Source: Thalassotalea sp. LPB0316
Lineage (GTDB): Bacteria; Pseudomonadota; Gammaproteobacteria; Enterobacterales; Alteromonadaceae
Reading direction: 5' to 3'
DNA: 64,000 bases
NCBI RefSeq assembly: GCF_014898095.1
Contig: NZ_CP062946.1
Coordinates: 2,356,001-2,420,000, forward strand
Positions 14,807 through 37,927 of this stretch are shown piece by piece; position 1 is the stretch's first letter; each line of letters opens with the position of its first letter. The translations under genes and the position numbers were made by a program. The notes under the pieces are model-generated. The model had not been told where the DNA came from, ran no database searches, and saw only the letters and a program-made list of their open reading frames with translations.

Positions 14807-14882
14807 GGGGCTATAGCTCAGCTGGGAGAGCGCTTCGCTGGCAGCGAAGAGGTCTGCGGTTCGATCCCGCATAGCTCCACCA
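14807..14882 (+). tRNA. tRNA-Ala (anticodon GGC)
   Basis: A 76-base cloverleaf with acceptor GGGGCTA / TAGCTCC and encoded ACCA end. The anticodon stem CTTCG / CGAAG encloses the loop CTGGCAG, anticodon GGC, reading GCC/GCU alanine codons. The T-loop TTCGATC is standard. It is the first gene of the operon. Confidence 0.97.
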
Positions 14883-14955
14883 CTTTAGCTTAGTCTTTTG
14901 TGTCGTGTGAAAGCAGTAAATAGTAACGTCTAGGTCCTGTTATTATTTATGTTGC

Positions 14956-15031
14956 GTCCCTATCGTCTAGAGGCCTAGGACACCGCCCTTTCACGGCGGT
15001 AACAGGGGTTCGAATCCCCTTAGGGATGCCA
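14956..15031 (+). tRNA. tRNA-Glu (anticodon TTC), copy 1
   Basis: A 76-base cloverleaf with acceptor GTCCCTA / TAGGGAT and encoded GCCA. The anticodon stem CCGCC / GGCGG holds loop CTTTCAC, anticodon TTC. It is identical in sequence to the four copies that follow. Confidence 0.97.
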
Positions 15032-15108
15032 AAATTCTTGAAATGAGAAAGGCATTTGTAGGTTTTACCTATTATAATCAGATGCAACAGTACGCAGTTT
15101 TACGGTGT

Positions 15109-15184
15109 GTCCCTATCGTCTAGAGGCCTAGGACACCGCCCTTTCACGGCGGTAACAGGGGTTCGAATCCCCTTAGGGATGCCA
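15109..15184 (+). tRNA. tRNA-Glu (anticodon TTC), copy 2
   Basis: Identical to copy 1 over all 76 bases, including the encoded CCA. A 77-base spacer separates it from copy 1. Confidence 0.97.
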
Positions 15185-15225
15185 ATTTCTCGTTTCACAA
15201 TTTTAAATGCAAGTAGCATCTTAGC

Positions 15226-15301
15226 GTCCCTATCGTCTAGAGGCCTAGGACACCGCCCTTTCACGGCGGTAACAGGGGTTCGAATCCCCTTAGGGATGCC
15301 A
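15226..15301 (+). tRNA. tRNA-Glu (anticodon TTC), copy 3
   Basis: Identical to copy 1 over all 76 bases; the spacer from copy 2 is 41 bases and differs in sequence from the other spacers. Confidence 0.97.
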
Positions 15302-15344
15302 CTTTTGCATGTTATTGGATTTGTGCATACATAGCACACTTAGT

Positions 15345-15420
15345 GTCCCTATCGTCTAGAGGCCTAGGACACCGCCCTTTCACGGCGGTAACAGGGGTTC
15401 GAATCCCCTTAGGGATGCCA
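15345..15420 (+). tRNA. tRNA-Glu (anticodon TTC), copy 4
   Basis: Identical to copy 1 over all 76 bases; the spacer from copy 3 is 43 bases. Confidence 0.97.
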
Positions 15421-15502
15421 ATTTCCAATAACAAATCACTTAAGTGTCGCTTTCATTAGGCCGAAAGCACATTGTTAATAAGTGAAAGCTGCAAAGCTTG
15501 AT

Positions 15503-15578
15503 GTCCCTATCGTCTAGAGGCCTAGGACACCGCCCTTTCACGGCGGTAACAGGGGTTCGAATCCCCTTAGGGATGCCA
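15503..15578 (+). tRNA. tRNA-Glu (anticodon TTC), copy 5
   Basis: Identical to copy 1 over all 76 bases; the spacer from copy 4 is 82 bases. It is the last gene before the terminator. Confidence 0.97.
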
Positions 15579-23310: not shown

Positions 23311-23513
23311 AACCTAAATCTCGACATTCATAATGACATCATTTTAGCTAAACAACCCCGTAAATAATACCGTTTATTCATGCAAAGCCCTACAGACGCG
23401 TGTTTATTTACGGAATGTTTTTTAACTAGCTGAATTATTTAGCAATAATTAAATGTTCTAGTTTTTTATTCAATGTAGCTTGGCTTAGCAAAAATAAATA
23501 ACTGTCTGATTTC

Positions 23514-23541
23514 TTGCAGATTTACCAATCTGAAATATAGT
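23514..23541 (+). promoter_or_regulatory. Candidate promoter of the chemosensory operon with a dyad in the spacer
   Basis: TTGCAG (23514-23519), a 16-base spacer and TATAGT (23536-23541) lie 33 bases before the first gene. A perfect dyad CAGATT-tacc-AATCTG (23517-23532) fills the spacer and may be an operator. No sigma28-type element was seen. Confidence 0.35.
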
Positions 23542-23573
23542 TAAAATAGTGTTGGTTTCTCGAGAGGGAGCTT

Positions 23574-23855
23574 ATGACGGTTCAAACTTGGACGTTACCG
23601 AGTGAATTAATTATTAATGACATAGATGATATCAAGAGCCTTGCCAGTCAACAGTACCTTGAGTCTGTCGACTTAGTGATTGATAGTACACATCTCACTC
23701 GAATAGATACCATTGGCGTGCAGTTTCTTTTAGCTTTTGTTCAAAAGCGTACCAATAACAACTATAAAACACGGTGGCAAAACCTTTCAGAAATTCTATT
23801 ACAAAGCCTTGAACAATTAGGTATCGCAAAATCTCGAGTAGCGATAGACGAATAA
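23574..23855 (+). CDS. STAS-domain protein, first gene of the chemosensory operon
   Basis: A 93-residue single STAS domain. The strand-loop-helix around the usual phosphorylation site reads DSTHLTRIDTIGVQFLL; anti-sigma antagonists have Ser here (D-S-S-G/A), and this protein has Asp-Thr, so phospho-switching is uncertain. GAGAGGGAG lies just before the ATG, a strong ribosome site. Similar small STAS proteins precede cheY/cheA in other alternative chemosensory clusters; the role is unclear, perhaps a scaffold or an array-binding protein. Twelve bases separate it from cheY. Confidence 0.8.
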   Translation: MTVQTWTLPSELIINDIDDIKSLASQQYLESVDLVIDSTHLTRIDTIGVQFLLAFVQKRTNNNYKTRWQNLSEILLQSLEQLGIAKSRVAIDE

Positions 23856-23867
23856 TAAGGAAAATAA

Positions 23868-24230
23868 ATGAGTAAGATTTTGGTCGTCGATGATTCTAAT
23901 TCCATTCGCGATATGGTGACCTTTACCCTCGAGAGTGCAGGGTATTCCACTGAACAGGCAGCCGATGGTTTACTTGGCTTGAACAAGGCTAAAACGACAG
24001 CGTTTGATCTTGTGATTTCAGATGTCAACATGCCAAATATGGATGGTATTAGTTTGTGCCAGGAGCTACGTAAATTGCCTGCGTTTAAATTTACCCCGAT
24101 TTTAATGCTCACTACCGAAAGCTCAACCGATATGAAAATGAGAGGCAAAGCAGCGGGCGCTACTGGTTGGTTAGTAAAGCCATTTAATCCAGACAAACTA
24201 TTAGCTACGATAAAACGGGTTATTAGATAG
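23868..24230 (+). CDS. cheY: CheY-type single-domain response regulator
   Basis: A 120-residue receiver domain. Acidic pocket DD (residues 8-9, VVDDSN), phospho-acceptor Asp in VISDVNMPNMDG, conserved Thr in MLTTES, and Lys in VKPFNP. It lies four bases before cheA, so it is the expected direct phosphoryl target. The receiver sequence resembles CheY proteins of non-flagellar or alternative clusters, so binding to the flagellar motor is not assured. Confidence 0.93.
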   Translation: MSKILVVDDSNSIRDMVTFTLESAGYSTEQAADGLLGLNKAKTTAFDLVISDVNMPNMDGISLCQELRKLPAFKFTPILMLTTESSTDMKMRGKAAGATGWLVKPFNPDKLLATIKRVIR

Positions 24231-24234
24231 CGTT

Positions 24235-26295
24235 ATGACTGTCGATCTGTCTCAATTCTTACCCACTTTCTTTGAAGAGAGCTTCGAAGGCGTTGAGGTA
24301 ATGGAATCAAATTTATTGTCACTTACTAGTGATGATAGAGAGACGATTGACTCTATTTTTAGAGCTGCACACTCAATAAAAGGTGGGGCAGGTACTTTTG
24401 GTTTAGAGCGTGTAAGTGAATTTACTCATCTAGTCGAAACTTTGTTAGATGAACTAAGAGATGGCCGAAGGCAATTTAACGAGCAAGACAAAGAGTTATT
24501 GCTACGAGCCACTGATACCATTAAAGCCTTATTAGAATGTGAAAAAAATGGCGTAGCAATTGAGCAAGCGACAGTAGATGAAGTTACAACACAATTAAAC
24601 AATGCATTAAATGGGAGAGTGTCACTAGTATCGAATGAAAGTAGTGGTTGGCGCATCATCTTTATTCCTGAGCCGGATATCGCTCAAACCGGCAACGATC
24701 CGTTATTACTATTCCAAGCTTTAGCTGACTTAGGTACGGTTCACGCGACCTGTAATGATGAGCATTTACCAGATTTTGATACGTTAGATGTTGAAGAGCT
24801 TCATTTAAGCTGGCAATTGACCCTCACCGACACCCAAGCAAGCCAACTCGATATTGAAGAGATTTTTGAATGGGTTGAAGACGAATGCACACTCGAGATA
24901 GCCCCCTTATCTGAACCTCAGAGCCAAACTCAGGTTAATCAAGCGCAATCTAGTGGACAGTTGCCCAATGCTTCTGAGCAACAAGTATCAAACCTTGCTC
25001 CTAGCAGCGAAGTAACGATTACGGGAACACCTGAAGTGATTGAGAGTAAAGAGCCAAAACCTAGCCGAGGGAAACACACCGACGCAGGCTCGATTCGTGT
25101 AGGTGTTGATAAAGTCGACAGCTTAATTAACTTAGTCGGTGAGTTAGTTATTACGCAGTCTATGCTGTCGGAATTAGGTCAAGATATAACATCTGCGGAT
25201 TCTGAAAAGTTGAAAGCAGGGCTTGAACAATTGATGCAGAACACGAAAGAATTACAGGAAAGTGTGATGCGCATCAGAATGCTGCCGATTAGCTTTACTT
25301 TTAACCGGTTTCCGCGCTTAGTTCACGATTTAGCCAAAAAAATCGGTAAAGAAATTAATTTGGTTATCCAAGGTGAACACACCGAGCTTGATAAAACGGT
25401 ACTAGAGCGCATAGGTGATCCGCTTACGCATTTAGTACGCAATGCGATAGATCACGGTATTGAAGCACCGGATGTTCGAACAACAGCAGGTAAGCCACCT
25501 GAAGGGCAGATTACTTTATCTGCTTATCATTTAGGCGGCAATGTTGTTATTGAAATCGCCGACGATGGCAAGGGTATTGATACTGAACTAATTCTTGCTA
25601 AAGCAAAAGAAAAGCAACTCATCGATGGCAACTATCCACTCAATATCCAGCAGATTTACGATTTAATATTTGAACCTGGCTTTTCAACGGCAGCGTGTGT
25701 CAGCGATATTTCTGGTCGCGGTGTTGGTATGGATGTAGTCAAGCGCAATATTCAGGCACTAGGTGGGAGAATTGTCATCGATTCTGCGCTCGGTAAAGGT
25801 AGTAATATTAAAGTCTACCTGCCACTTACCTTAGCTATTTTAGACGGGCAACTCGTTAAAGTCTGTGGCCAAACATACATTATTCCATTACTTATTATTG
25901 TTGAATCTGTGCAGATGCAGGCTGACAATATTGTCACTGCTTCCGGCGGCCAATATTACTATCGGCTACGCGATGATAATGTGCCTATTTTACCCCTCGG
26001 AAAGCTCTTTAATCTTGGTAGTCAAGCCTCTCCAAGCGCTGAAGGGTTATTGGTCGTAACCGAGTGTGAGGGTCAAAAGGTCGGCTTATTGGTTGACGAT
26101 TTATTAGGCCAGCAGCAAGTTGTCATTAAGAGCTTACAAGAGAATTATCAACAAGTTAATGGCATTTCAGGGGCAACTATTTTGGGTAATGGTGCCGTCG
26201 CACTGATCATTGATATCGCCGGTATTATTGACCTATCTAAAAAGCATACCAATGGTGTAAGTAAGCAAACTTCCGCTCAGGAGGTTGAACAATGA
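24235..26295 (+). CDS. cheA: Chemotaxis histidine kinase CheA
   Basis: A 686-residue CheA. Order: Hpt/P1 (about 1-110) with the phosphorylated His46 in RAAHSIKGGAGTFG, a P2-like linker region (about 135-260), a Gln/Ser/Pro-rich spacer, the dimerisation domain (about 280-345; RVGVDKVDSLINLVGELVIT), the HATPase (about 345-535; N box LVRNAIDHG, G1 IADDGKGID, G2 ISGRGVGMDVV), and the CheW-like P5 domain (about 535-680). All catalytic motifs are intact. It overlaps the first cheW by four bases (ATGA), showing translational coupling. Confidence 0.96.
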   Translation: MTVDLSQFLPTFFEESFEGVEVMESNLLSLTSDDRETIDSIFRAAHSIKGGAGTFGLERVSEFTHLVETLLDELRDGRRQFNEQDKELLLRATDTIKALLECEKNGVAIEQATVDEVTTQLNNALNGRVSLVSNESSGWRIIFIPEPDIAQTGNDPLLLFQALADLGTVHATCNDEHLPDFDTLDVEELHLSWQLTLTDTQASQLDIEEIFEWVEDECTLEIAPLSEPQSQTQVNQAQSSGQLPNASEQQVSNLAPSSEVTITGTPEVIESKEPKPSRGKHTDAGSIRVGVDKVDSLINLVGELVITQSMLSELGQDITSADSEKLKAGLEQLMQNTKELQESVMRIRMLPISFTFNRFPRLVHDLAKKIGKEINLVIQGEHTELDKTVLERIGDPLTHLVRNAIDHGIEAPDVRTTAGKPPEGQITLSAYHLGGNVVIEIADDGKGIDTELILAKAKEKQLIDGNYPLNIQQIYDLIFEPGFSTAACVSDISGRGVGMDVVKRNIQALGGRIVIDSALGKGSNIKVYLPLTLAILDGQLVKVCGQTYIIPLLIIVESVQMQADNIVTASGGQYYYRLRDDNVPILPLGKLFNLGSQASPSAEGLLVVTECEGQKVGLLVDDLLGQQQVVIKSLQENYQQVNGISGATILGNGAVALIIDIAGIIDLSKKHTNGVSKQTSAQEVEQ

Positions 26296-26825
26296 ACTTA
26301 CAAAACCTGATTAATGACGTGCCGGTAGAAGGCGAATATACCCTGGAAGGACTCGATTTTATCACCAGTGGCGATCAATACCTTAGCTTTAAGCTGGCTG
26401 AAGAATGTTATGCCGTTGATATTTTAGCCGTCGAAGAAATCAGAAGTTGGCAAGAGCCAACGATTATTCCCAATGCGCCTAAGGAGGTTATTGGTGTTAT
26501 TAATATGCGAGGCACCATCGTCCCGATTGTCGATTTGCGTATCAAATTTAATGTCGGGCAAGTTAGCTATACACCGACCACGGTTGTCATTGTCCTTGCT
26601 ATTGATACGGTTGACGCACTAAGAAAGGTCGGCTTTGTCGTTGACGCGGTTGAAGACGTTATTAACGCAAAGGCCGAAGAAGTAAAGCCATACTTTGAAC
26701 TATCAGGTGGTATTGCTAGTCGATTTGTCGAAGGCCAAATTAACGTTAACCAAGCAATTGTTACCGTTGTCAACTTGCGAGCATTACATCAGTTCAATGA
26801 CCAAAGTGAGGTTGCATATGAGTGA
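26292..26825 (+). CDS. cheW: CheW coupling protein 1
   Basis: A 177-residue CheW-domain scaffold linking receptors to CheA. It has an N-terminal extension of about 35 residues, then the domain with VDILAVEEIRSW, PNAPKEVIGVINMRGTIVPI and VDLRIKF, all characteristic of CheW. It overlaps cheA by four bases and the second cheW by eight bases. Two CheW paralogues in tandem may fill different positions of the CheA/CheW ring. Confidence 0.95.
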   Translation: MNLQNLINDVPVEGEYTLEGLDFITSGDQYLSFKLAEECYAVDILAVEEIRSWQEPTIIPNAPKEVIGVINMRGTIVPIVDLRIKFNVGQVSYTPTTVVIVLAIDTVDALRKVGFVVDAVEDVINAKAEEVKPYFELSGGIASRFVEGQINVNQAIVTVVNLRALHQFNDQSEVAYE

Positions 26826-27294
26826 GCAAAGTCATGAGTATTTAACCTTCTTTGTCGCCGGCGAAGAATTTGGCATTGAAATTCTTGCCGTACAAGAGAT
26901 TCGCGTATTGCGAAAAATCACCGAGTTACCCAATAAACCTGAATGTGTCCTAGGAGTGATTAACTTGCGTGGCACCATTATACCTATTGTGGACTTAAGA
27001 CTTAGATTTAATAAACCACAGGTCGATCACGGCGATAAAACGGTGGTCATTATCTTAAAGCAGCTCCATGAAGCATCTGACAACAGCATAGGCATTGTCG
27101 TTGATAGCGTGTCAGAAGTTTACCAAGTCGCAGCTAATCAAGTGAATTTATCACCAAGCTTTGGCAATCACGTTGATCATTGTTTTATTCATGGCCTAGC
27201 CAATGTTAACCACAAACTCATCGTATTACTTGATAGTCAAAAAATCTTTGATACTGAACTTTTGTATCAAGCTAACCCAGTATCAACGATTTAG
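26818..27294 (+). CDS. cheW: CheW coupling protein 2
   Basis: From ATG 26818 the product has 158 residues and begins [23 protein letters not shown] stands seven bases upstream; the frame is open to 26695 but only inside the first cheW, so the earlier starts are not credible. The CheW signature [19 protein letters not shown] and VDLRLRF are intact. It has no N-terminal extension, unlike its neighbour. The receptor gene follows after 26 bases. Confidence 0.94.
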
Positions 27295-27320
27295 TTATAG
27301 ACAAGCGAGATTTAAACAAT

Positions 27321-29681
27321 ATGACACCAAAGCAAATAACAATAATTCAAGATACTTGGCAGGAGATCACCGAACAATTTGAAGCTAAGCAGGTCGCTCA
27401 GATTTTTTATGCGCGACTTTTTTCGCTTGATAATTCGCTCAAAGCGCTATTTGCTGACGATCTAACTGAGCAGGGTGAAAAACTGGTGAATATGATCAAC
27501 CTGGCTGTGAACAATATAGACAAACCACAGGTTTTAATCCCAGCGTTAGAAAAGCTTGGTGAGCGCCATGTTACTTATGGGGTGCAAGATCAGCACTATC
27601 AGATCGTTGGCGAGGCACTCCTGTATACCTTAGAGCAAGCGCTTGGCGAAGCCTTTGACGAAGCAACAAGCAAAGCGTGGCAATCGACTTATCAATTAAT
27701 CGCAAAAACCATGATGGAAGCCGGCCATAAACAACAAATAAGTGATGAAGGGGATACCCAAATGAGTAAGGGAATTCATGATCTAGGTGCTTTTATACAA
27801 GGCGCTATAGAGCAGTCAAGCACTGCATTTATGATGATTGATCGCGATTTTATTATTACTTACGTAAATCAAGCGACGTTAACACTTTTAAGCAAACACG
27901 AGCAAACACTTCGAAGTAAATGGCCTAACTTTTCTGCTGAAAAAAACGCAATTATAGGTGCTTGTATTGATATTTTTCACGAGCGGCCAGAACACCAGCG
28001 ACGATTACTTGATGATCCAAATAATTTGCCTTGGGTTACTGATATTAATATCAATGGCTTGTTAATTGAACTCAACGTGACGGCGATATTTGATAACCAA
28101 GGTAACTACGTGGGTAACTCGTTAGAATGGCAAGATGTTACATTAGCCAGAAAAAACACCATTGAAGTTGGACGCTTAACATCTGCAGTCGAGGGCATGA
28201 CAACTAATTTAATGATGGCTGATCCGCAAGGTAACATTGTTTACGCTAACCCTGCGGTGTTAAAAATGTTGAAATCTCGAGAGGCTGAATTGAGAGCCGT
28301 ACTACCACAATTCAATGCCGACACACTCATCGGTACTAACTTTGATACGTTTCACAAAAATCCTCATCATCAGCAAAGCTTGTTAGGCGACCCGACGAAA
28401 CTGCCATATCGCACAGAAATTAAAGTTGCTGACCTGTGTTTTGAGTTAATCGCTATAGCGTTAATCGATGAAAATGGCACGCATCAAGGTACTGCGGTGC
28501 AGTGGTTAGATCTAACTGAGCAACGCGATGCGCAAGAGCAAGTTGATCAGTTGCTGAGCGCAGCAATCGAGGGCCGGTTAGACGAGCGTATCGATACGGC
28601 GAGGTATCAGGGCTTCATGAAGGAGCTTGGCGAAAATATTAATGGCCTGATGGACTCAGTGATCCAACCGATCAGTGACGCGATTGAAACAGCTAAGTCC
28701 CTAGAGCAAGGTGATCTAAACAACTTGATGGATGAAAGTTATCAAGGAGAATTCCAAGCATTAGCTAATGCTATGAACGCCTCTATCTGCAATTTAACCA
28801 ATATGGTTGGTGAGATCCGCAGTGTGTCAAATAACGTGTTTGAAACCGCTAAAGAAATTGCTGCGGGTAACTCAGAACTGAGCCATCGTACTGAGTCTCA
28901 AGCGTCGAGTTTAGAGGAAACCGCTTCAGCAATGGAAGAGATCACATCAACGGTTGTTCAAAATGCTGAAAACGCCACGGAAGCGAGTAAGTTGTCAAAT
29001 GAGGTCATGGCCAAGGCGAACAATGGCGGAGACGTCGTTAAAAATGCAATTTCAGCAATGAGTGAAATTAATAAATCGAGTAAAAAAATTGCCGATATTA
29101 TTAGTGTCATTGATGAAATCGCATTCCAAACCAATCTACTTGCGCTTAATGCTGCAGTTGAAGCGGCACGAGCTGGTGAACAAGGCAGGGGATTTGCGGT
29201 GGTTGCTGCAGAAGTGCGCAACTTAGCACAACGCAGTGCCGGTGCAGCTAAAGAAATAAAAGGTTTGATAAACGATAGTGTTGAAGCTGTTGGACAAGGT
29301 ACTAAGCTGGTCGATGAAACAGGTCAAACTTTTACTGATCTTGCTGCTGCCATAGAGGAAGTCAGTCAAATGCTTTCAAGTATTGATACAGCAAGTAAAG
29401 AGCAAAGTGCAGGTGTCGCGGAAGTCAGTACTTCGATTAGCCAAATGGATGAAATGACCCAGCAAAACGCCGCCTTGGTGGAAGAAGTTAGTGCATCGAG
29501 TGCCGCGATGGAAGATCAAGCCCAAAACCTGTTAGAGCAGGTGGCGGTATTTAAAACGAAAGATAATGAAACCCAACAGCCAATCGCCTCGCGTAATCAA
29601 GTGCAGCGCAAGGTTGTCACGCCAGTGAAGTCACCAATGAATAGATTATCGAGTTTAGATGACGAATGGGAAGAGTTTTAA
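27321..29681 (+). CDS. Cytoplasmic globin-PAS-PAS methyl-accepting chemotaxis protein
   Basis: A 786-residue receptor with no membrane helix. Residues 1-135 form a flavohaemoglobin-type globin: His83 matches the proximal F8 His ([20 protein letters not shown]), Tyr30 matches B10 and Phe44 the CD1 Phe, and Gln51 may be E7. Two PAS domains follow (about 155-280 and 285-405), each with an F-H-x2-P-x-H-Q-x2-L-L-x-D-P motif. A HAMP-like linker (about 425-490) leads to the MCP signalling domain (about 500-745), with the hairpin tip at about 599-637 ([20 protein letters not shown]). The last five residues, EWEEF, match the CheR/CheB-docking pentapeptide. Likely ligands are O2, NO or CO by haem; this is inferred from the globin residues. 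Confidence 0.93.
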
Positions 29682-29690
29682 TGGAGTAAA

Positions 29691-30539
29691 ATGGTGATCT
29701 CTCAACCTATGGTTATTGAGCGACTTAATCGTAAACAATATGAGTTCTTATGCCAGTTCATCTATAAAGAGACCGGTATAGTGCTTGGTGATGCCAAGGT
29801 AGAAATGGTGCACAGGCGCTTGTCAAAACTGGTGAAAACCAAAGGGTTTGACAGCTTAGCTAGCTATTACCAATATTTTGTCGCGCACCAACAAGAGGAA
29901 AAGAGCGACTTAGTTAATGCATTGACCACTAACTTGACGAGGTTTTTTAGAGAAAGCCATCATTTTGATTACCTCAAAAATCACTTTATTCCTTTTTTAC
30001 TCGTGCGAAATAAAAGCACCAGACGCATAAGAATTTGGTCGAGCGCGTGCTCAACTGGTGAAGAGCCATATAGTATTGCCATGCTACTGGTGAGTCACTT
30101 TGGCCAGTATCTGCAACATTGGGATATTAAGATTTTAGCAACAGATATCGACACTGATGTGCTTAATATTGCCATGGAAGGAATTTACCCTAAAGCTGCG
30201 ATTAGTGACATTCCAGCTGATTTACGCAGTAAATGCTTACGTGCAGTTGGTAACGATTCCGTTGAGATGGCATCACAAGTGCGCTCATTAATCACTTTCA
30301 AGCCACTAAACTTACTTGAACGATGGCCAATGAAAGGGCCTTTTGACGTGATTTTTTGCCGTAACGTGATTATTTACTTTGACAAAGTGACTCAACAACA
30401 ACTTTTCCACCGATTTGAGCAATACTTAAGTGATGAAAGCCTATTGATACTAGGTCACAGTGAAAGTCTTGGTGGAGCCGCGGCATTGTTTACTAACCAG
30501 GGTAAAACGATTTTTAGCAAACAGGCGCAGGACGCATAG
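29691..30539 (+). CDS. cheR: Chemoreceptor glutamate methyltransferase CheR
   Basis: Methylates receptor Glu residues with S-adenosylmethionine. The 282 residues have the helical N-terminal domain (about 10-80) and the methyltransferase domain (about 85-280) with WSSACSTGEEPYSIAM (motif I), ATDIDTDVLNIAMEG, and the CRNVIIYFD motif. GGAG lies four bases before the ATG. It directly follows the receptor whose C-terminus carries a docking pentapeptide, and cheD starts at the very next base after its stop codon. Confidence 0.96.
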   Translation: MVISQPMVIERLNRKQYEFLCQFIYKETGIVLGDAKVEMVHRRLSKLVKTKGFDSLASYYQYFVAHQQEEKSDLVNALTTNLTRFFRESHHFDYLKNHFIPFLLVRNKSTRRIRIWSSACSTGEEPYSIAMLLVSHFGQYLQHWDIKILATDIDTDVLNIAMEGIYPKAAISDIPADLRSKCLRAVGNDSVEMASQVRSLITFKPLNLLERWPMKGPFDVIFCRNVIIYFDKVTQQQLFHRFEQYLSDESLLILGHSESLGGAAALFTNQGKTIFSKQAQDA

Positions 30540-31181
30540 ATGGCAGATCCTACTATGCCACCATCCCATTACCATGAGTTCGACCATGTTAATCACTATT
30601 GGGATAAGCAAAAACAAAAACACATAGCGAAAATTTTACCCGGTGAGTTTTATTTAAGTCGCTCAGATATATTAATTGCAACGACATTAGGTAGTTGTGT
30701 GTCAGCTTGTATTTGGGATGAACAGATGAAGATTGGTGGCATGAACCATTTTATGCTACCGAACACCGATAAGGAGGCCGACAATGTCTTGTGGGGTAGT
30801 CAGCACAAAATATCGACAGCGACACGATACGGTAATTTTGCCATGGAGCACTTAATCAATGGCTTATTAAAGTATGGTGCAAACAAAACTAACTTAAAGG
30901 TTAAAGTATTTGGTGGTGCAAAGGTGGTAGGTTATATGACGGATGTTGGCGAAAGAAATATCAACTTTGTTCAGCATTATTTAAAAACCGAAAAGTTAGT
31001 AGTGGTTAGTGAGGATTTAGGAGATTTCTATCCTAGAAAACTTCTCTTTGATCCTCTTTCAGGCAAGGTGTTGATGAAGAAGCTTAGAAACCTTCACAAT
31101 AATACTATTGTTGCTAGGGAACAGTCATACCAAAGTGCTATTGCATCATCTAAAATTGATGGCGACGTGGAGTTGTTTTAA
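30540..31181 (+). CDS. cheD: Chemoreceptor glutamine deamidase CheD
   Basis: Deamidates receptor Gln to Glu. At 213 residues it is at the longer end for the family, owing to an N-terminal lead of about 35 residues. The active-site triad elements are present: Cys in TTLGSCVSACIWD, His in GGMNHFMLP, and a downstream Thr in the KISTATRYG segment. It overlaps cheB by one base (TAATG). Confidence 0.95.
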   Translation: MADPTMPPSHYHEFDHVNHYWDKQKQKHIAKILPGEFYLSRSDILIATTLGSCVSACIWDEQMKIGGMNHFMLPNTDKEADNVLWGSQHKISTATRYGNFAMEHLINGLLKYGANKTNLKVKVFGGAKVVGYMTDVGERNINFVQHYLKTEKLVVVSEDLGDFYPRKLLFDPLSGKVLMKKLRNLHNNTIVAREQSYQSAIASSKIDGDVELF

Positions 31182-32245
31182 TGACAAAAATTAATGTACT
31201 CGTCGTAGATGACTCTCGGGTGATACGCGATGTTATTCGCACTATGCTCGAAGGCAGTGAAAGCATTAATGTGATCGGCGAAGCTGAAAACCCCTACGAG
31301 GCTCGAGAGAAGATAAAACAACTCAATCCCGATGTCTTAACGCTTGACATAGAAATGCCGCGAATGGATGGTATAACCTTCCTGAAAAATTTGATGCGTT
31401 TGCGGCCAATGCCGGTGGTAATGTTATCAAGTTTAACCAAAAATGGCGCCGATATTACCCTAGAAGCGCTTGAGATAGGGGCAGTAGACTACCTTGAAAA
31501 GCCAAAGCCAGCAGATTTACTTGTCCATAGTGAGCGTTTTAAACACCAACTCGAAGAGAAATTAAGCCAAGCGGCCCAAGCGAATATTCGCCGTTATCAA
31601 TCGGCGGTACAAAAACTCAATGATAGGGATATTACGTCAATAGAAAATAGCCAATATAAAGCTAATCATATTATTGCGATTGGCGCATCCACTGGGGGCA
31701 CAGAAGCAATATCACATATACTTGCCAAGATGCCAACAAATTGCCCTCCTATTGTGATTACTCAACATATTCCTGAGCATTTTAGTAAGCGTTTTGCAAC
31801 GCGATTGAACAAGTATTGCCAAATTAAAGTTAAACAAGCACAAGATGGCGCAATCCTAAAAAGTGGTGTTGCATATATTGCGCCCGGTGGACTGCATTTA
31901 GTCTTTGAGCAAGAGGGCAGTAAGATCACTTGTCGGTTACTTGATAGCGATAAAATTAATCGTCATCGACCCTCAGTCGATAAAATGTTTGAGTCGTTAC
32001 TGCCGTTTGCAACAAATGTTCAAGCATTACTATTAACCGGGATGGGGGCAGATGGTGCTCATTCGATGTTAGCGTTAAAAAAAGCAGGCGCAACCACGAT
32101 CATTCAATCGAAATCGAGTAGTTTAATTTGGGGGATGCCGGGGGCTGCTTATCGGCTCAATGCTCATCAACAAATTTGCCATTTAGAGGATATACCCGCT
32201 GTCGTGCTACAAAATGCACAAGTGTTAAAAGCTAACTCGCTATAA
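31181..32245 (+). CDS. cheB: Chemotaxis response regulator protein-glutamate methylesterase CheB
   Basis: Removes methyl groups from receptors when phosphorylated by CheA. The 354 residues carry a receiver domain (about 1-125; DD in VVDDSR, phospho-Asp in TLDIEMPRMDG) and a methylesterase domain (about 160-350) with the catalytic Ser in IGASTGGTEAI, His in TQHIPEHF and Asp in GMGADGAHSM. With CheR, CheD and CheB all present, this system has full adaptation chemistry. Confidence 0.96.
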   Translation: MTKINVLVVDDSRVIRDVIRTMLEGSESINVIGEAENPYEAREKIKQLNPDVLTLDIEMPRMDGITFLKNLMRLRPMPVVMLSSLTKNGADITLEALEIGAVDYLEKPKPADLLVHSERFKHQLEEKLSQAAQANIRRYQSAVQKLNDRDITSIENSQYKANHIIAIGASTGGTEAISHILAKMPTNCPPIVITQHIPEHFSKRFATRLNKYCQIKVKQAQDGAILKSGVAYIAPGGLHLVFEQEGSKITCRLLDSDKINRHRPSVDKMFESLLPFATNVQALLLTGMGADGAHSMLALKKAGATTIIQSKSSSLIWGMPGAAYRLNAHQQICHLEDIPAVVLQNAQVLKANSL

Positions 32246-32257
32246 GGAGATTAATTC

Positions 32258-32569
32258 ATGCCAATAACTAGCCACTATGATCAAGCACAACAGGCTTTAG
32301 TAATAGCTATTGATCAACAATTTGATTTTTCTATGCATCAAGCATTTAAGGAGGCCTATAGCCAAATTGACAATAGCCAGAGCACACACTACATCATAGA
32401 CTTGGCAAATACGACTTATATGGATAGTTCCGCATTAGGGATGATTTTACTGCTTAGGGAGCACGCACTGGCAAGTGATGGCAAGGTAACGATTAAAGCG
32501 CCAAGTGATAGTGTCTTAAAAGTACTCGAAATTGCCCAGTTTCAAAAGCTGATTGATATCCAACGTTAG
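32258..32569 (+). CDS. STAS-domain anti-sigma factor antagonist (HsbA-like)
   Basis: A 103-residue single STAS domain with an intact phosphorylation loop, DLANTTYMDSSALGMILLL; the DSS serines are where such proteins are phosphorylated by an anti-sigma kinase and dephosphorylated by a PP2C phosphatase. AAGGAG precedes the ATG. The next gene, three bases on, encodes both a PP2C and a HATPase domain, the expected partner switch. In Pseudomonas the equivalent pair is HsbA/HsbR, where HsbA binds FlgM or a diguanylate cyclase; here the binding target is not known. Confidence 0.85.
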   Translation: MPITSHYDQAQQALVIAIDQQFDFSMHQAFKEAYSQIDNSQSTHYIIDLANTTYMDSSALGMILLLREHALASDGKVTIKAPSDSVLKVLEIAQFQKLIDIQR

Positions 32570-32572
32570 ATT

Positions 32573-34294
32573 ATGGTTAAAACCAAAGACAAAAAGTCAG
32601 CACTAGTTGTCGATGACTCCCGAAGTCAGCGCAGCTATATTCGAGCATTACTTATTGAACTAGGATATCAAGTACACACTGCCGAAAACGGTGCTGTAGG
32701 TGTTAATAAATTTAGTAAATATCATCCAGATATCGTCTTAATGGATATCAATATGCCAATTATGGATGGTTTTGAGGCGGCAAAAATTATTAAATCAACG
32801 AGCAATAATGGTTTCTGCCCATTGATTTTCGTCACAACGATGAACTCTGAAAAAACAACCTTAGAAAGTGCACAGGTTGGTGGTGATGGGATTTTAGTAA
32901 TGCCATTCACGCCTGAAGTCTTCAAAGCTAAAATTATGTCATTACAGCGGATTAGTGACTTATATCAAGAGCTCACTTTGCTTCAACAATCTCAACTCCA
33001 TGATGCTGAGTTAGCAGAGCAGGTTATGGCGAGTGTCATCGATAGTCGAAATTATTCACCTGAGTATATCGCTATTGTCAAACAGGCTGCTTCACTTTTT
33101 AGTGGTGATATTCAGCTAAGCGAACGCTGTCCAAATGGTGATGTAAACATTTTACTTGGCGACTTTACAGGCCACGGTTTGCGCTCATCTGTTGGTGCTA
33201 TTCCGGTAGCCGAAACATTTCGAACCATGACAAAAAAAGGCTTTTCATTATTAGAGATCACCAGTCAACTTAATCAACAGCTCTACGAGTTGCTACCAAG
33301 TGATTTATTTCTTGCCGCAGGTTTAGCAACGGTTTCTTTTGACGAGAAGTCGTTTTATGTGGTCAATGCGGGGATTCCAGACATTTTATTGATCGGTGAT
33401 GAGGGGATGGTCAAACATCATATTACATCGAGTCATCCTCCTTTGGGGATTATGCCAAGGCTGTTACCAAGTGCTGCGTTAGATGTATTTGCAATGGAAA
33501 TCACCGATAACCTACTGATGATAAGCGATGGCGTTATCGAAGCCCGAAATAGCGCAGGTGAATTTTACGGCGAACAACGTTTACATCAATTGATTAGTCA
33601 CCTAGTAGGAGAGCATGACGTAGCTAGGTTATTACTAAATGACGTTAACTTATTCGTCTCTGGCGTAGAGCAAGGCGATGATATTTCTATTATTAATGTC
33701 GCCTGTAAATTATTTCAGAAATCTGAACAAGAGCCACTTTCTAGCCGTGAGTACCCTCAACTTGCTCCTGACTCCTTGCCTTTGAGTGAAAAGCCAAGTT
33801 GGTCATGGCGCGTAGTATTAAATGATCAGCGGCTAGCCAGTGTCAATCCCGTGCCATTAGCGATGAATCAATTAAAAGATATCGAAGAAGACGGTGAGCA
33901 CTGGCAAAGCGTCTATACTATTTTAACAGAGCTCTATATCAATGCTTTAGATCACGGCATTTTATTACTTGATTCTTCGCTGAAAAATTCTGTCGAGGGT
34001 TTTTCACAGTATTTTAGATTAAGAGCAGAAAAGCTCAACCAAGCGATAACAGGCTCAATTGCTATTTCGATCGACCTCTATAGTTTTAGTCGAGGAGGTA
34101 AAGTAGTGATCAGAGTTAACGATAGTGGTGCTGGTTTTGATGTAGAAAGCGTGTTGAAACAGCGTATCAATCATGCACAAGCCAATAATCAAGTGTTGTC
34201 TGGGCGTGGAATAGAATTGGTTAGCAAATTATGTGAAACCTTAAGTTACAATAATTTCGGGACGTCGGTGGAGGCTTCATACTTATGGGAATAG
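32573..34294 (+). CDS. Receiver - PP2C (SpoIIE-like) phosphatase - HATPase protein (HsbR-like)
   Basis: A 573-residue three-domain partner-switch regulator. Receiver (about 1-130; DD in VVDDSR, phospho-Asp in LMDINMPIMDG), a PPM/SpoIIE phosphatase (about 175-385; SGDIQL, LGDFTGHG, MISDGVIEARN and GDDISII supply the metal Asp residues), and a C-terminal RsbW/HATPase-like domain (about 420-573; LTELYINALDHG, VNDSGAGFD, SGRGIELV). The same protein could thus phosphorylate and dephosphorylate the STAS protein encoded just upstream, with the receiver taking CheA or other input. This matches the Pseudomonas HsbR layout. It overlaps the next gene by ten bases. Confidence 0.9.
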   Translation: MVKTKDKKSALVVDDSRSQRSYIRALLIELGYQVHTAENGAVGVNKFSKYHPDIVLMDINMPIMDGFEAAKIIKSTSNNGFCPLIFVTTMNSEKTTLESAQVGGDGILVMPFTPEVFKAKIMSLQRISDLYQELTLLQQSQLHDAELAEQVMASVIDSRNYSPEYIAIVKQAASLFSGDIQLSERCPNGDVNILLGDFTGHGLRSSVGAIPVAETFRTMTKKGFSLLEITSQLNQQLYELLPSDLFLAAGLATVSFDEKSFYVVNAGIPDILLIGDEGMVKHHITSSHPPLGIMPRLLPSAALDVFAMEITDNLLMISDGVIEARNSAGEFYGEQRLHQLISHLVGEHDVARLLLNDVNLFVSGVEQGDDISIINVACKLFQKSEQEPLSSREYPQLAPDSLPLSEKPSWSWRVVLNDQRLASVNPVPLAMNQLKDIEEDGEHWQSVYTILTELYINALDHGILLLDSSLKNSVEGFSQYFRLRAEKLNQAITGSIAISIDLYSFSRGGKVVIRVNDSGAGFDVESVLKQRINHAQANNQVLSGRGIELVSKLCETLSYNNFGTSVEASYLWE

Positions 34295-35232
34295 AAAATC
34301 AAATAACGGTACTGGTTATTGAAGACTCAGAAAGTATGCGCAAAGTTATTTGTGGTTTTGTTGAAGGGGAGGGGCATATAGCGCTTGAAGCCGATGGTCA
34401 CATCGAGGCGTTTGAGCAACTCGAGGCAAACACAGTCCAACTCATTTTAATGGATATTGAAATGCCAGTTGTCAATGGTATCGAGTTGACCAAGCAGATC
34501 AGAAAAAGGTATGAGCGTTGGATTCCGATTATTTTCTTAAGTGGTAATGATCGAGATAAATTTCTAACGCAAGGCATCGAAGCCGGTGGCGATGACTACT
34601 TAACTAAGCCAGTCAAACCGACCATCCTTCATGCAAAAATTAATGCCATGGTACGCATTGCAACAATGCAACGCGAATTAAATTTACTTAACCAGAAGCT
34701 CGAAAAACTCACGTTGCAAGATCCATTAACTAAAGTGATGAATCGTAGAGCTTTGGATAAAAAGCTCAAAGAAGACTGGTATACCTGTCAGCGAATCAAT
34801 CAGCCGCTTTCGGTACTTATGATAGATATTGACCACTTTAAATCCTATAACGACCATTATGGCCATGCCCAAGGCGACAATTGTTTAAAGAAAGTTGCCT
34901 TGTCTTTAAAACAAAATATCAATAGAGAAACGGATAGCATTGCGCGATATGGTGGTGAAGAATTTACCGTTTTACTGCCATTTACTTGCTTAGAGCACGC
35001 AGAAATCAAAGCGAAGCAACTTGCACGCCTGCTTGAGGAACGCAGCATTGAACACATTAAATCGCCAACCGCGAAAGTTGTAACAATAAGCATCGGCATT
35101 GCTTGTACAAGCCAAGAGATAACTTCTTATAAAGAGCTTATCAATAATGCGGACAGTGCTTTATACCAGTCAAAAGTCAACGGGCGAAATCAAACCTGTA
35201 TTTATGAGCAAAGCATAAGAAAAATAAGTTAA
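34285..35232 (+). CDS. Response regulator diguanylate cyclase (receiver-GGDEF)
   Basis: A 315-residue WspR/PleD-like enzyme producing c-di-GMP. The receiver (about 1-125) has acidic residues in VIEDSE and the phospho-Asp in LMDIEMPVVNG, with the Lys in TKPVKP. A short coiled coil leads to the GGDEF domain (about 150-310) with the active motif GGEEF at 223-227 and an inhibitory RxxD (RETD, 214-217) exactly five residues before. The ATG lies within the end of the preceding gene, so translation is probably coupled. In Pseudomonas the HsbA partner HsbD is also a cyclase, though of other architecture. Confidence 0.92.
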   Translation: MGIENQITVLVIEDSESMRKVICGFVEGEGHIALEADGHIEAFEQLEANTVQLILMDIEMPVVNGIELTKQIRKRYERWIPIIFLSGNDRDKFLTQGIEAGGDDYLTKPVKPTILHAKINAMVRIATMQRELNLLNQKLEKLTLQDPLTKVMNRRALDKKLKEDWYTCQRINQPLSVLMIDIDHFKSYNDHYGHAQGDNCLKKVALSLKQNINRETDSIARYGGEEFTVLLPFTCLEHAEIKAKQLARLLEERSIEHIKSPTAKVVTISIGIACTSQEITSYKELINNADSALYQSKVNGRNQTCIYEQSIRKIS

Positions 35233-35255
35233 TTGTCTGTGCATGGAAGGTAAGA

Positions 35256-36419
35256 ATGAATAAACCTAATGTTTTAATTATTGATGATGATCAGGAATAC
35301 CTAAATCTTTTAAAGGTCGGGTTAGAAAGCCAATTTGAGATAACGTTAGCACTTAATTTTGAACAAGTTGCAGAGCTAGAGTGTGACCAACAAGTTTTTG
35401 ATATTGCACTTGTTGATGAGCACGTTGGACAAGACCATGGTTCAAGTTGGATCGCGCAACAAAAACAAACACACGCTATTGCTAATTCTTATGTGCTTTA
35501 TTCTGGGCTGGCCAATGAAGAAGCTATATTGGAGGGACTAGCCTGTGGCGCGGATGATTTTCTTGCTAAGCCTCTATCAATAAAGGCACTGTGTAGTAAG
35601 CTCAGCCGGCTAGTCGCTTATCAAAATAAAATCAGCGCGTTTGAACAACAGCTTCAATCAAAAGATAAGGTGATCAATATATCAATGTCGCAAGCATCGA
35701 AATACGGTGCCTGTATGTTACTGACTTCTAAGCTAAACCACTGTAATTCAATTAACGAAATAAAAGATAAAGTGTTTAGTTTTTTAGATAATTTAGATCT
35801 TCATGGCTGTGTTGCTTTTTATCCAGTTCAGTCTGATCCTCAATATTTCCACTCGCTCAAAGGCACGTGTTCGCCGGTTGAAATCGAAGTCTTAGAAATA
35901 TTAAAAACCAAGCCTCGGTTATTTCGATTTGGCTGTCGCACGATATTTAATCACCACCTAGTCTCATTACTTATTTTAAATCTCCATGATGACGATCCTG
36001 ATACCGATATATATATTGATGCCTTAGCATCTTTGATTGAGTGCATCGGTGCGCGGGTTGCATTTCTAGCATACAAGGATTCGTTAGCTCAGGTACAAAG
36101 TCAGATATCGTCGGCAGTTAACACGACGAAAAAAATGGTTGAAGTGTCTAAATATCATCAACAAGAAATCATGGGAGAAATCGTTGAAAAAATCGGTTTG
36201 AGCTTTCATGTTCTCGATTTAGATGAAAAGCAGGAAGAGTATTTGATGAAATTAGTTCACGATGTGCTTAAAAAACATTCACAGGACGATATGAACTTTA
36301 TTGAAGTCACTCAGTTGCTCGATCAAGTCCTGACAAATGTTGAGCGGATCAAACAATTAGATAAGTACCAAGAAATTCAAACACCTGATGATGAATTCGA
36401 TGATGACGAGCTTTTCTAA
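35256..36419 (+). CDS. Receiver-domain protein with an unrecognised GAF-like/coiled-coil C-terminal part
   Basis: A 387-residue protein. The receiver (about 1-125) keeps the acidic triplet IIDDDQEY, a putative phospho-Asp in ALVDEHVG and the Lys in LAKPLS. A coiled coil (about 128-150) is followed by a region of about 150 residues that looks like a GAF fold (NEIKDKVFSFLDNLDLHGCV), then a long helix and a very acidic tail ending DDEFDDDELF. No output enzyme is visible. The tail ends in hydrophobic residues within Asp/Glu, a form that could dock on another protein. It is the last gene of the operon. Confidence 0.75.
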   Translation: MNKPNVLIIDDDQEYLNLLKVGLESQFEITLALNFEQVAELECDQQVFDIALVDEHVGQDHGSSWIAQQKQTHAIANSYVLYSGLANEEAILEGLACGADDFLAKPLSIKALCSKLSRLVAYQNKISAFEQQLQSKDKVINISMSQASKYGACMLLTSKLNHCNSINEIKDKVFSFLDNLDLHGCVAFYPVQSDPQYFHSLKGTCSPVEIEVLEILKTKPRLFRFGCRTIFNHHLVSLLILNLHDDDPDTDIYIDALASLIECIGARVAFLAYKDSLAQVQSQISSAVNTTKKMVEVSKYHQQEIMGEIVEKIGLSFHVLDLDEKQEEYLMKLVHDVLKKHSQDDMNFIEVTQLLDQVLTNVERIKQLDKYQEIQTPDDEFDDDELF

Positions 36420-36491
36420 CGGACCGTTGTTAATGTGCTAACAGATAGAGAAAGTTTGGTTAAGCAATTTGGTTTGCCGGTTGCCAAGGGG

Positions 36492-36755
36492 TTAATCGAT
36501 GCTCACGCGAATGTCTGAAACAGGTTGACAGCAACAGGCTAGAATTTCACCTTCGCCGACAAAAGCGAGTGGTTCGCCATGGGGATACGCTACTTGACCT
36601 TCTTCTAACGTGATTCGGCAAGCACCACAAAATCCATCGCGGCAGTGAAAATGCACTTCGACATTGGCCGCCTCTAGGCAGTTCAATATCGTTTGATGTG
36701 ATTCAAGGTAGGTGACAGTAATGTCACCTACTTGAATATTGACTCCGTTAGCCAT
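36492..36755 (-). CDS. yfaE: [2Fe-2S] ferredoxin YfaE for ribonucleotide reductase
   Basis: An 87-residue plant-type ferredoxin. The cluster Cys pattern is visible in CRDGFCGACRI (C-x5-C-x2-C) and in the distal ACCCQP stretch. YfaE helps keep the diferric-tyrosyl radical cofactor of NrdB reduced and active. It lies 41 bases downstream of nrdB on the same strand, the usual class Ia arrangement. Confidence 0.92.
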   Translation of the reverse strand: MANGVNIQVGDITVTYLESHQTILNCLEAANVEVHFHCRDGFCGACRITLEEGQVAYPHGEPLAFVGEGEILACCCQPVSDIRVSID

Positions 36756-36796
36756 GTTGTTTGCGCTCAGGTAATCGCAATAACAAAAGCAATGGC

Positions 36797-37927
36797 TTAT
36801 AAGTCGAAATCATCGAAGTCGTCAGATGAAACTTCTGAGTCGACTTGACCAACTAAATAACTTGAAATCTCAGTTTCTTGAGGAGCAACTTGAACATTAT
36901 CGCTCACGAGATACGCGTTCATCCATGGCAATGGGTTACTCTTAACAGCAAACGGTGGCTCGAAACCAATTGCTGCCATACGTTGATTACTAATGTACTC
37001 AATATATTGGTTCAATATTTCAGCATTTAAGCCGATCATTGAACCGTCCTTAAACAAGTACTGAGCCCATTCTTTTTCTTGTTCAACAACATCTAGGAAA
37101 ATTTGTTTACCTTGAGCGGCAAACTGCTCAGAAATTTCCTTCATTTCAGGATCATCTTTGCCTGACATCCAGTTATTCAAAATGTGCTGAGTACCTGTTA
37201 AATGCAAAGCTTCATCACGTGCAATTAACTTGATGATTTTTGCATTACCTTCAAGCAACTCACGTTCAGCAAAAGCAAATGAGCAAGCAAAGCTGACGTA
37301 GAAGCGAATTGCCTCAAGCGCATTAACCGAACAAATCGCCAAGTATAGTCGCTCTTTTAATTTACGCTCAGTCACTTCGATAGTGTTACCATCAACCTCG
37401 TAACTACCTTCACCTTGAGACTGCAATAATTGAGTCGTCAGAATAACATCATCAAAGTACTTTGCGATGCTTGATGCGCGTTTTAAAATCGCTGGGTTTA
37501 CTACAATGTCATCAAACACTTCACTTGGATCAGTAAATAGGTTACGTAAAATGTGCGTGTAAGATCTCGAGTGAATGGTTTCACTAAAAGCCCATGTTTC
37601 AATCCACGTTTCTACTTCCGGCAGTGATACCAATGGCAACAAAACGGCGTTTACTGAACGTGCGGCCATTGAATCAAGTAGTGTTTGATACTTGAGGTTT
37701 GAGATGAAAATATGTTTTTCAGAAGGTGTTAATGATTGCCAATCGGCGCGATCTTTAGATACATCGACTTCTTCAGGACGCCAGAAAAACGATAATTGTT
37801 TTTCAATAAGCTTTTCAAACGCCATAAAACGCTGTTGGTCGTATCGAGATACGTTAACGCTATTACCCAAAAACATTGGCTCTAATAAAGCATTATTTGG
37901 TTCTTGGTTAAACGTAGTGTAGGCCAT
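36797..37927 (-). CDS. nrdB: Ribonucleoside-diphosphate reductase class Ia, beta subunit
   Basis: Carries the diiron-tyrosyl radical. The 376 residues match E. coli NrdB in length. Iron-ligand helices are visible ([44 protein letters not shown]). The C-terminal tail is acidic with aromatic residues ([10 protein letters not shown]), as needed to bind NrdA. It follows nrdA after 107 bases. Confidence 0.97.

Follow-up and report, generated by a model that had tools for sequence, protein, structure and literature searches.

The locus examined here raises the question of what a globin is doing at the head of a chemoreceptor gene, and whether that gene gives the cell one receptor or two. In the window, by which we mean the whole stretch of 64,000 nucleotides that was analyzed, a 786-residue open reading frame encodes globin, PAS, PAS, HAMP, and MCP signaling domains in that order, with the globin (Pfam: PF00042) at residues 29–131 (E = 4.7e-17) and a single HAMP match between the PAS and MCP regions; a second HAMP was not resolved by Pfam (table 1). 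The fusion is confirmed. A previous sequence-only reading of this DNA had proposed a globin, two PAS domains, and an MCP signaling domain without a membrane helix, and Pfam finds each of these domains; the HAMP domain had been overlooked, as had the Aer2-type identity within an F7 che cluster, the heme residues of the PAS domains, and the conserved internal start, so that its interpretation of the receptor is partly supported. Judged from domain layout and sequence, the receptor is apparently soluble, with no evident membrane helix, as that reading had it. An AlphaFold model contains a helical globin (pLDDT of 86–97 as ten-residue block means across residues 1–140) and two PAS folds, and linker residues 145–158 have pLDDT below 50; because its pTM is only 0.39, the model does not define the placement of the domains relative to one another. 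The C-terminal pentapeptide follows the CheR-tether motif x-[HFYW]-x2-[HFYW] as given in PMC7184735, and a tail of this type is common to 38 of the 40 globin–Aer2 genes that we collected.

Table 1. Features of the receptor gene and the surrounding che cluster (window coordinates)
Feature	Coordinates	Strand	Basis
STAS-like ORF, 93 aa	23574..23855	+	by eye
CheY-like receiver, 120 aa	23868..24230	+	by eye and synteny
CheA	24235..26295	+	ORF, Pfam
CheW	26292..26825	+	Pfam
Second CheW ORF	26695..27294	+	Pfam, synteny; true start probably near 26797-26818
Globin–Aer2 receptor gene, long product 786 aa	27321..29681	+	ORF, Pfam, NCBIfam
Globin domain, residues 1-137	27321..27731	+	PF00042; phmmer, tree, and fold indicate HGbI type
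Variable linker, residues 138-158; model confidence low from 145 onward	27732..27794	+	pLDDT, length comparison
Shine-Dalgarno-like sequence GAAGGGGA	27747..27754	+	read from the sequence; duplex energy -7.9 at ATG
Predicted short globin-less product from Met148, 639 aa	27762..29681	+	Met conservation, SD, synonymous-codon tests
PAS1, heme-type, His220 and Trp270	27798..28145	+	PDB 6ceq/3vol/4hi4 matches, motif positions
PAS2, heme-type, His345 and Trp395	28173..28520	+	PDB 6ceq 1.6e-31, motif positions
HAMP_2, residues 429-489	28605..28787	+	Pfam
MCP signaling domain (MCPsignal), residues 557-713	28989..29459	+	Pfam, E 7e-53
C-terminal DEWEEF, CheR-tether type pentapeptide	29661..29678	+	motif x-[HFYW]-x2-[HFYW]
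CheR	29691..30539	+	Pfam
CheD	30540..31181	+	Pfam
CheB	31181..32245	+	Pfam
Receiver–SpoIIE phosphatase–HATPase, CrsR-like by domain order	32573..34294	+	Pfam
Receiver–GGDEF	34285..35232	+	Pfam
Receiver-domain protein, 387 aa	35256..36419	+	Pfam

From residue 157 onward the receptor is of the Aer2 type and belongs to an F7 chemosensory cluster. The NCBIfam model of the Vibrio Aer2 equivalog (NF041847) matches residues 157–786 with 877.5 bits; given that this is below the curated cut-off of 1200 and that the match spans only those residues, we regard the receptor as a relative of Aer2 and not as the equivalog. Each PAS domain matches the Aer2 structures of Vibrio cholerae (PDB 6ceq) and Pseudomonas aeruginosa (3vol/4hi4), PAS1 having been aligned to 6ceq and PAS2 to 6ceq, 3vol, and 4hi4, and Foldseek recovers 6ceq with a TM score of 0.86 (rmsd 3.4 Å). 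Both domains contain the heme histidine and the tryptophan of Aer2, the tryptophan being replaced by leucine in 6ceq itself. The histidine lies in an FHxxP motif and presumably corresponds to His234 of P. aeruginosa Aer2, in which we take the tryptophan to be Trp283. His234 is described as the heme ligand of that protein (PMC13401364). Since both PAS domains keep these residues, up to three heme sites are predicted in the receptor, the globin included. Most of the 40 family receptors have two and up to seven heme-type PAS motifs, the exceptions being G481 (one His and two Trp motifs) and G005 (none); a relative of 1438 residues (G027, L072 4365–8678) has seven such motifs after its globin by motif count.

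In its PAS–PAS–HAMP–MCP order, F7 operon, and cytoplasmic character, the receptor resembles Aer2 of V. cholerae and SO_2123 of Shewanella oneidensis, although SO_2123 is described as PAS–PAS–HAMP–HAMP–MCP; heme His and Trp residues are reported in both PAS domains of SO_2123 along with b-type heme spectra, and a CheR tail is reported for most Aer2-like receptors (PMC7184735, PMC9855816). What distinguishes the window receptor from the Vibrio and Shewanella proteins, as these sources describe them, is the globin and the putative internal start. The gene order cheA–cheW–cheW–aer2–cheR–cheD–cheB is found in the 11 globin-bearing relatives examined, in one case divided between two contigs, and two globin-less receptors (G048 and G007) lie in a like cluster. 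Gene order and the Aer2 match point to the F7 class, and the cluster resembles the che1/F7 locus of S. oneidensis. The genes for a CrsR-like phosphatase and a GGDEF protein that follow the che genes suggest that the output may be stress or c-di-GMP control and not the flagellum; for S. oneidensis, a possible role of the F7 system in RpoS control via CrsR is described (PMC9855816). No McpA-like receptor gene follows cheB in the window (32245–32573); at the corresponding place, a receptor-like ORF of ∼390–400 residues is found in two relatives, L063 and L142. A promoter scan of 23400–36900 returned 25 sites, fewer than in shuffled sequences (32.3), and transcription starting inside the receptor gene is therefore unsupported. 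Elsewhere in the window, positions 14807–15578 hold clustered tRNA genes: one for tRNA-Ala and five for tRNA-Glu (TTC).

The globin is an F-lineage single-domain globin of the Hell's Gate globin I (HGbI) type, without a D helix. Its closest relatives in the PDB by phmmer are HGbI (1e-24) and HGbRL (1e-23) of Methylacidiphilum, followed at a distance by neuroglobins (from 4.5e-15), Vgb (7e-12), and Hmp (about 3e-11), and the globin model overlays oxygen-bound HGbI (3s1i) with a TM score of 0.92 by target length (rmsd 1.4 Å). In a 73-row tree, for which 25 of the 40 family globins were submitted and from which G003, G010, G467, and L217 were then dropped for their long branches, the globins of the family's Aer2 receptors fall among single-domain globins, and eight flavohemoglobin (Hmp) globins form a separate clade (100/100). 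This clade rules out the flavohemoglobin origin that the sequence-only reading had favored. Among the checks which that reading had proposed, the structure prediction returned a globin fold; the phylogeny placed Hmp apart; and the profile search recovered a globin, with the NCBIfam flavohemoglobin model matching residues 2–137 at 79 bits and the Hell's Gate globins as nearest matches in the PDB. No FAD/NAD reductase domain is present among the Pfam matches of the receptor. Like HemAT and other globin-coupled sensors, the receptor has a globin ahead of an MCP signaling domain; to our knowledge, HemAT has no heme PAS domain. The HemAT globin is given as a Protoglobin (PF11563) in PMC6194562, and this family has no match in our receptor at E ≤ 0.1 (Pfam), which rules out HemAT kinship and bears out the earlier assignment to a different globin branch. 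HGbRL is likewise an F-lineage globin fused to a signaling-type domain, but its partner is described as Roadblock/LC7 and not a chemoreceptor (PMC4476040).

The heme-pocket residues named by the same reading, Tyr30 (B10), Phe44 (CD1), Gln51 (E7), and His83 (F8), are correctly placed and are invariant in an alignment of 15 globins, rows picked as intact and including that of the window. Tyr30 and Gln51 correspond to the distal pair of HGbI, a globin described as binding O2 with very high affinity and autoxidizing little (PMC4476040). All four residues are kept in 31 of the 40 family globins, and the other nine (L070, L068, L116, L123, L130, L131, L125, L134, and L075) are degenerate, having lost the CD1 Phe (eight), the F8 His (four), or both by an alignment of the 40 that is unsure for its most diverged rows. 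All nine are still recognized by the globin profile (E = 2e-45 to 3e-14 in a set of 40), eight of them are in receptors that retain the PAS His and Trp motifs, and they may represent decay of heme binding in several genera. A heme-free structural head used for dimerization or docking would account for losses in a fold that profiles still recognize, and RsbR is described as a heme-free globin (PMC4476040); we consider such a role very improbable given that the large majority, the window globin among them, keep the complete pocket.

The globin–Aer2 fusion is widespread in the family. When the best two candidates per genome were scored, 45 of 395 family genomes had a receptor match at E ≤ 1e-150; 39 of these and G005 supplied our set of 40 genes from 40 genomes and 14 genera, which rules out an artefact of one assembly. 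The six matching genomes without a globin–Aer2 row comprise two in which the gene begins at a contig edge (G527 and G605), one that was masked (G464), and three with other, hydrophobic N-termini in place of the globin (G446, G508, and G553); the globin start is likewise missing from the second receptor copies of G435 and G485. Named carriers include Thalassotalea loyana, whose globin is 65% identical to that of the window, Colwellia, Litorilituus, Thalassomonas, and Glaciecola pallidula. In a scan of 398 genomes across the phylum, every fused Aer2 match was within the window's family.

Our main new finding is the internal start in these genes, which we describe as putative: an in-frame Met codon with its own ribosome site, conserved in the linker between globin and PAS1, that would make this a dual-start kind of gene. 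In the window the codon lies at 27762 behind a Shine-Dalgarno (SD)-like sequence, and the anti-SD GGATCACCTCCTTA occurs six times in the genome. A linker Met is present in 40/40 genes, 10–18 residues ahead of the PAS1 cap (33 in G005), while the distance from residue 134 to this Met varies from 9 to 81 residues; elsewhere in the linkers, neighbors within three residues of the conserved Met being left out, only 2 of 920 residues are Met. The Met was defined by position (8–22 residues before the PAS1 cap, extended to 33 for G005 alone) and not by its SD. An earlier rule, which accepted the earliest Met within a broad interval, found one in 39 of the 40 genes, picked a helix-H Met in several, and gave no excess over synonymous shuffles (168/1000; genus-averaged, 289/1000).

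Across the 40 genes, which are not independent, the mean energy of hybridization with the 16S tail is −4.80 at the linker ATG, compared with −0.72 at 1076 other in-frame ATGs (Mann–Whitney p = 8.7e-19) and −1.07 at 1875 out-of-frame ATGs; the globin start codons themselves average −4.9 (39 genes). When the six upstream codons (e.g., AAA GGA or AAA GAG) were recoded synonymously, a mean as low as the observed one arose in 3 of 2000 trials (4 of 2000 with genus averages); GGA is seen 14 times for 3.4 expected and GAG 18 times for 9.2. The inner ribosome site is thus conserved beyond codon-level expectation. Genera g14, g9, and g2 and one g26 genome have weak sites (−2.1 to −2.4), and in g14, g2, and g3 the site is no better than the genes' own synonymous shuffles. 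A minimum of mRNA structure at the linker ATG is explained by base composition and was rejected as independent proof. These patterns suggest that the cell may make the receptor both with and without its globin head, and the energies in the window (−7.9 at the inner start vs. −3.1 at the globin start) imply that the short form could even be the more abundant one. The linker Met and its ribosome site could instead be a relic of the old receptor start, with the fused protein as sole product, as would be expected after fusion by loss of a globin stop and as the weak sites of several genera would allow. We judge this improbable: every gene has kept the Met in a linker that has otherwise diverged in both sequence and length, and SD-favoring codons recur across the 14 genera and also in other lineages.

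Outside the family, a like globin is fused ahead of MCPs in assemblies of Rhodospirillales, Burkholderiales, relatives of these two, and Kordiimonadaceae; some of these receptors are membrane-bound, as judged by eye, and one (L277) has HAMP domains of the P. aeruginosa McpB type. In nine of 11 such frames, a set that includes several truncated at the edge of a contig, the first Met downstream of the globin has an SD of −5 or lower, compared with 18 of 192 other Met codons, the exceptions being L185 (+0.2) and L293 (−3.2). One of the nine (L294 3646–5985, minus strand), a relative from a metagenome-rich group, has globin and MCP frames split by an in-frame stop soon after the strong ribosome site and Met, possibly through assembly error; we rejected it as an unfused operon and did not use it as an ancestral state because it is a fused frame with a stop in the linker. 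Separate globin genes are found in three Burkholderiales loci, where they lie 118–187 bp downstream of an Aer2-like receptor with a strong SD of their own; cheR, cheD, and cheB follow the globin in L180 and do so after about 1.6 kb in L285, and the L286 contig stops about 1.1 kb beyond the globin with no further che match up to that point. A single clade of all fusions is weakly rejected (p-AU = 0.039), and one origin of the non-family fusions (0.116) or of those within the family (0.685) is not, from which we conclude that two fusion origins are likely and three possible. The simplest reading is that partnership came first and fusion later, a direction that we infer.

Globins of this kind were also seen in other settings. 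L293 (3457–4761) has two tandem globin domains before an MCP signaling fragment, and two Aquimarina loci (L179 and L198) have frames of 294–298 residues with an apparent second globin. Stand-alone globins of Flavobacteriaceae carry a conserved Trp-rich C-terminal tail (e.g., KPWWKFW; L171, L173, L182, L183, L193, L195, L197, L199, L201, and L203) that is perhaps a membrane or protein docking motif. In ten loci (L178, L186, L187, L190, L206, L208, L210, L215, L218, and L219), nine of which carry the name of a Bacteroidota genus or family, a stand-alone globin is followed after 18–196 bp by a lipoprotein-like gene of ∼270 residues (ENDVxRTLYTKAIVG), whose product is a likely partner.

The explanation that we favor, and hold with fair confidence, is that an aer2 gene of an F7 operon has acquired a fused accessory globin and that one gene would yield long and short receptors. 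An HGbI-type single-domain globin would have been joined in frame ahead of aer2, whose own ribosome site and start codon would have been retained within the new linker; with that start kept, two products per mRNA are predicted, a globin–PAS–PAS–HAMP–MCP receptor and a globin-less one. Oxygen would be read mainly by the two heme PAS domains, as in Vibrio Aer2, and the signal passed via HAMP to CheA; such signaling is established in relatives, and the residues that it needs are present here. The globin, on its disordered tether, would be an accessory heme module: it would bind O2 (or NO) tightly close to the array and would modulate or shield the PAS sensors without driving them rigidly. It may serve as a buffer, protect against NO, or provide a second range of sensing. 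It looks accessory because the tether is floppy, an internal start is predicted, some relatives have degenerate globins, and others have a separate globin gene.

A globin acting as main or equal gas sensor, in line through PAS1 and with a second range of affinity for O2 (or NO/CO), much as the sequence-only reading had it, fits the intact pockets of the 31 globins equally well, which is a point against a purely accessory role; it also fits the very tight O2 binding described for HGbI with the same distal pair (PMC4476040) and the fusion of globins to Aer2-like receptors in more than one lineage. We nevertheless find it rather unlikely, given a low-confidence linker of very variable length, a predicted form without globin, nine degenerate globins, and the three clusters that encode the globin separately. 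One variant of the accessory reading, compatible with it and in our view possible but doubtful, is that the tethered globin is a guard whose oxy form destroys NO before it reaches the PAS hemes. An F-lineage globin with Tyr at B10 would suit this task, as would Tyr93, which we take to be the counterpart of Tyr G5 in Hmp and which is invariant in the 15 intact-pocket rows, and a genome in which the receptor globin is the sole PF00042 match and profile search finds no PF01152 globin; against it, there is no fused reductase to recycle the heme, and residue 133, presumably the counterpart of the H23 Glu in Hmp, is not conserved among family globins.

The bare combination of domains is not new. A 2018 Corallococcus paper that covers 8,075 complete genomes lists seven PAS+Bac_globin+MCP proteins, with carriers including Colwellia sp. 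MT41 and Glaciecola nitratireducens (PMC6194562), and the proteins of these two strains are probably members of the receptor family described here. Its passages on these proteins name the globin Bac_globin (PF01152) and draw no tie to Aer2 or F7, to an HGbI-type globin, or to an internal start. A PF01152 receptor was rejected as the protein meant, as the nine PF01152 matches in eight genomes, among which the paper's strains are perhaps not included, are all in frames of at most 167 residues. In the open-access literature, with subscription papers mostly outside this scope, we found no account of the Aer2/F7 identity, the HGbI-type globin, or the internal start. Internal-start isoforms are themselves already known, and the gene would resemble CheA-L/CheA-S and CcmM-L/CcmM-S in yielding a shorter product with its own role from an in-frame start; CheA-S and CcmM-S, as described, are not receptors and are not linked to a recurrent gene fusion (PMC11005335).

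A seemingly simple fusion thereby becomes a testable case of one gene and two receptor forms, with three predicted heme sites, in cultured marine bacteria such as Thalassotalea and Colwellia. HGbI-type globins, whose function is unclear, are now linked to chemosensory arrays, in a partnership seen in both separate-gene and fused versions. We lean toward the hypothesis, with less assurance than for the dual-product gene itself, that receptor genes more than once took in a globin gene while keeping their own start, and that the ratio of the two starts sets the response to O2 or NO. If this is true, these bacteria would be able to assemble arrays in which receptors with and without a globin are mixed, and would possess a genetic device that doses an accessory heme module per array, and work that expresses only the annotated long ORF, or only the PAS part, would miss half of the system.
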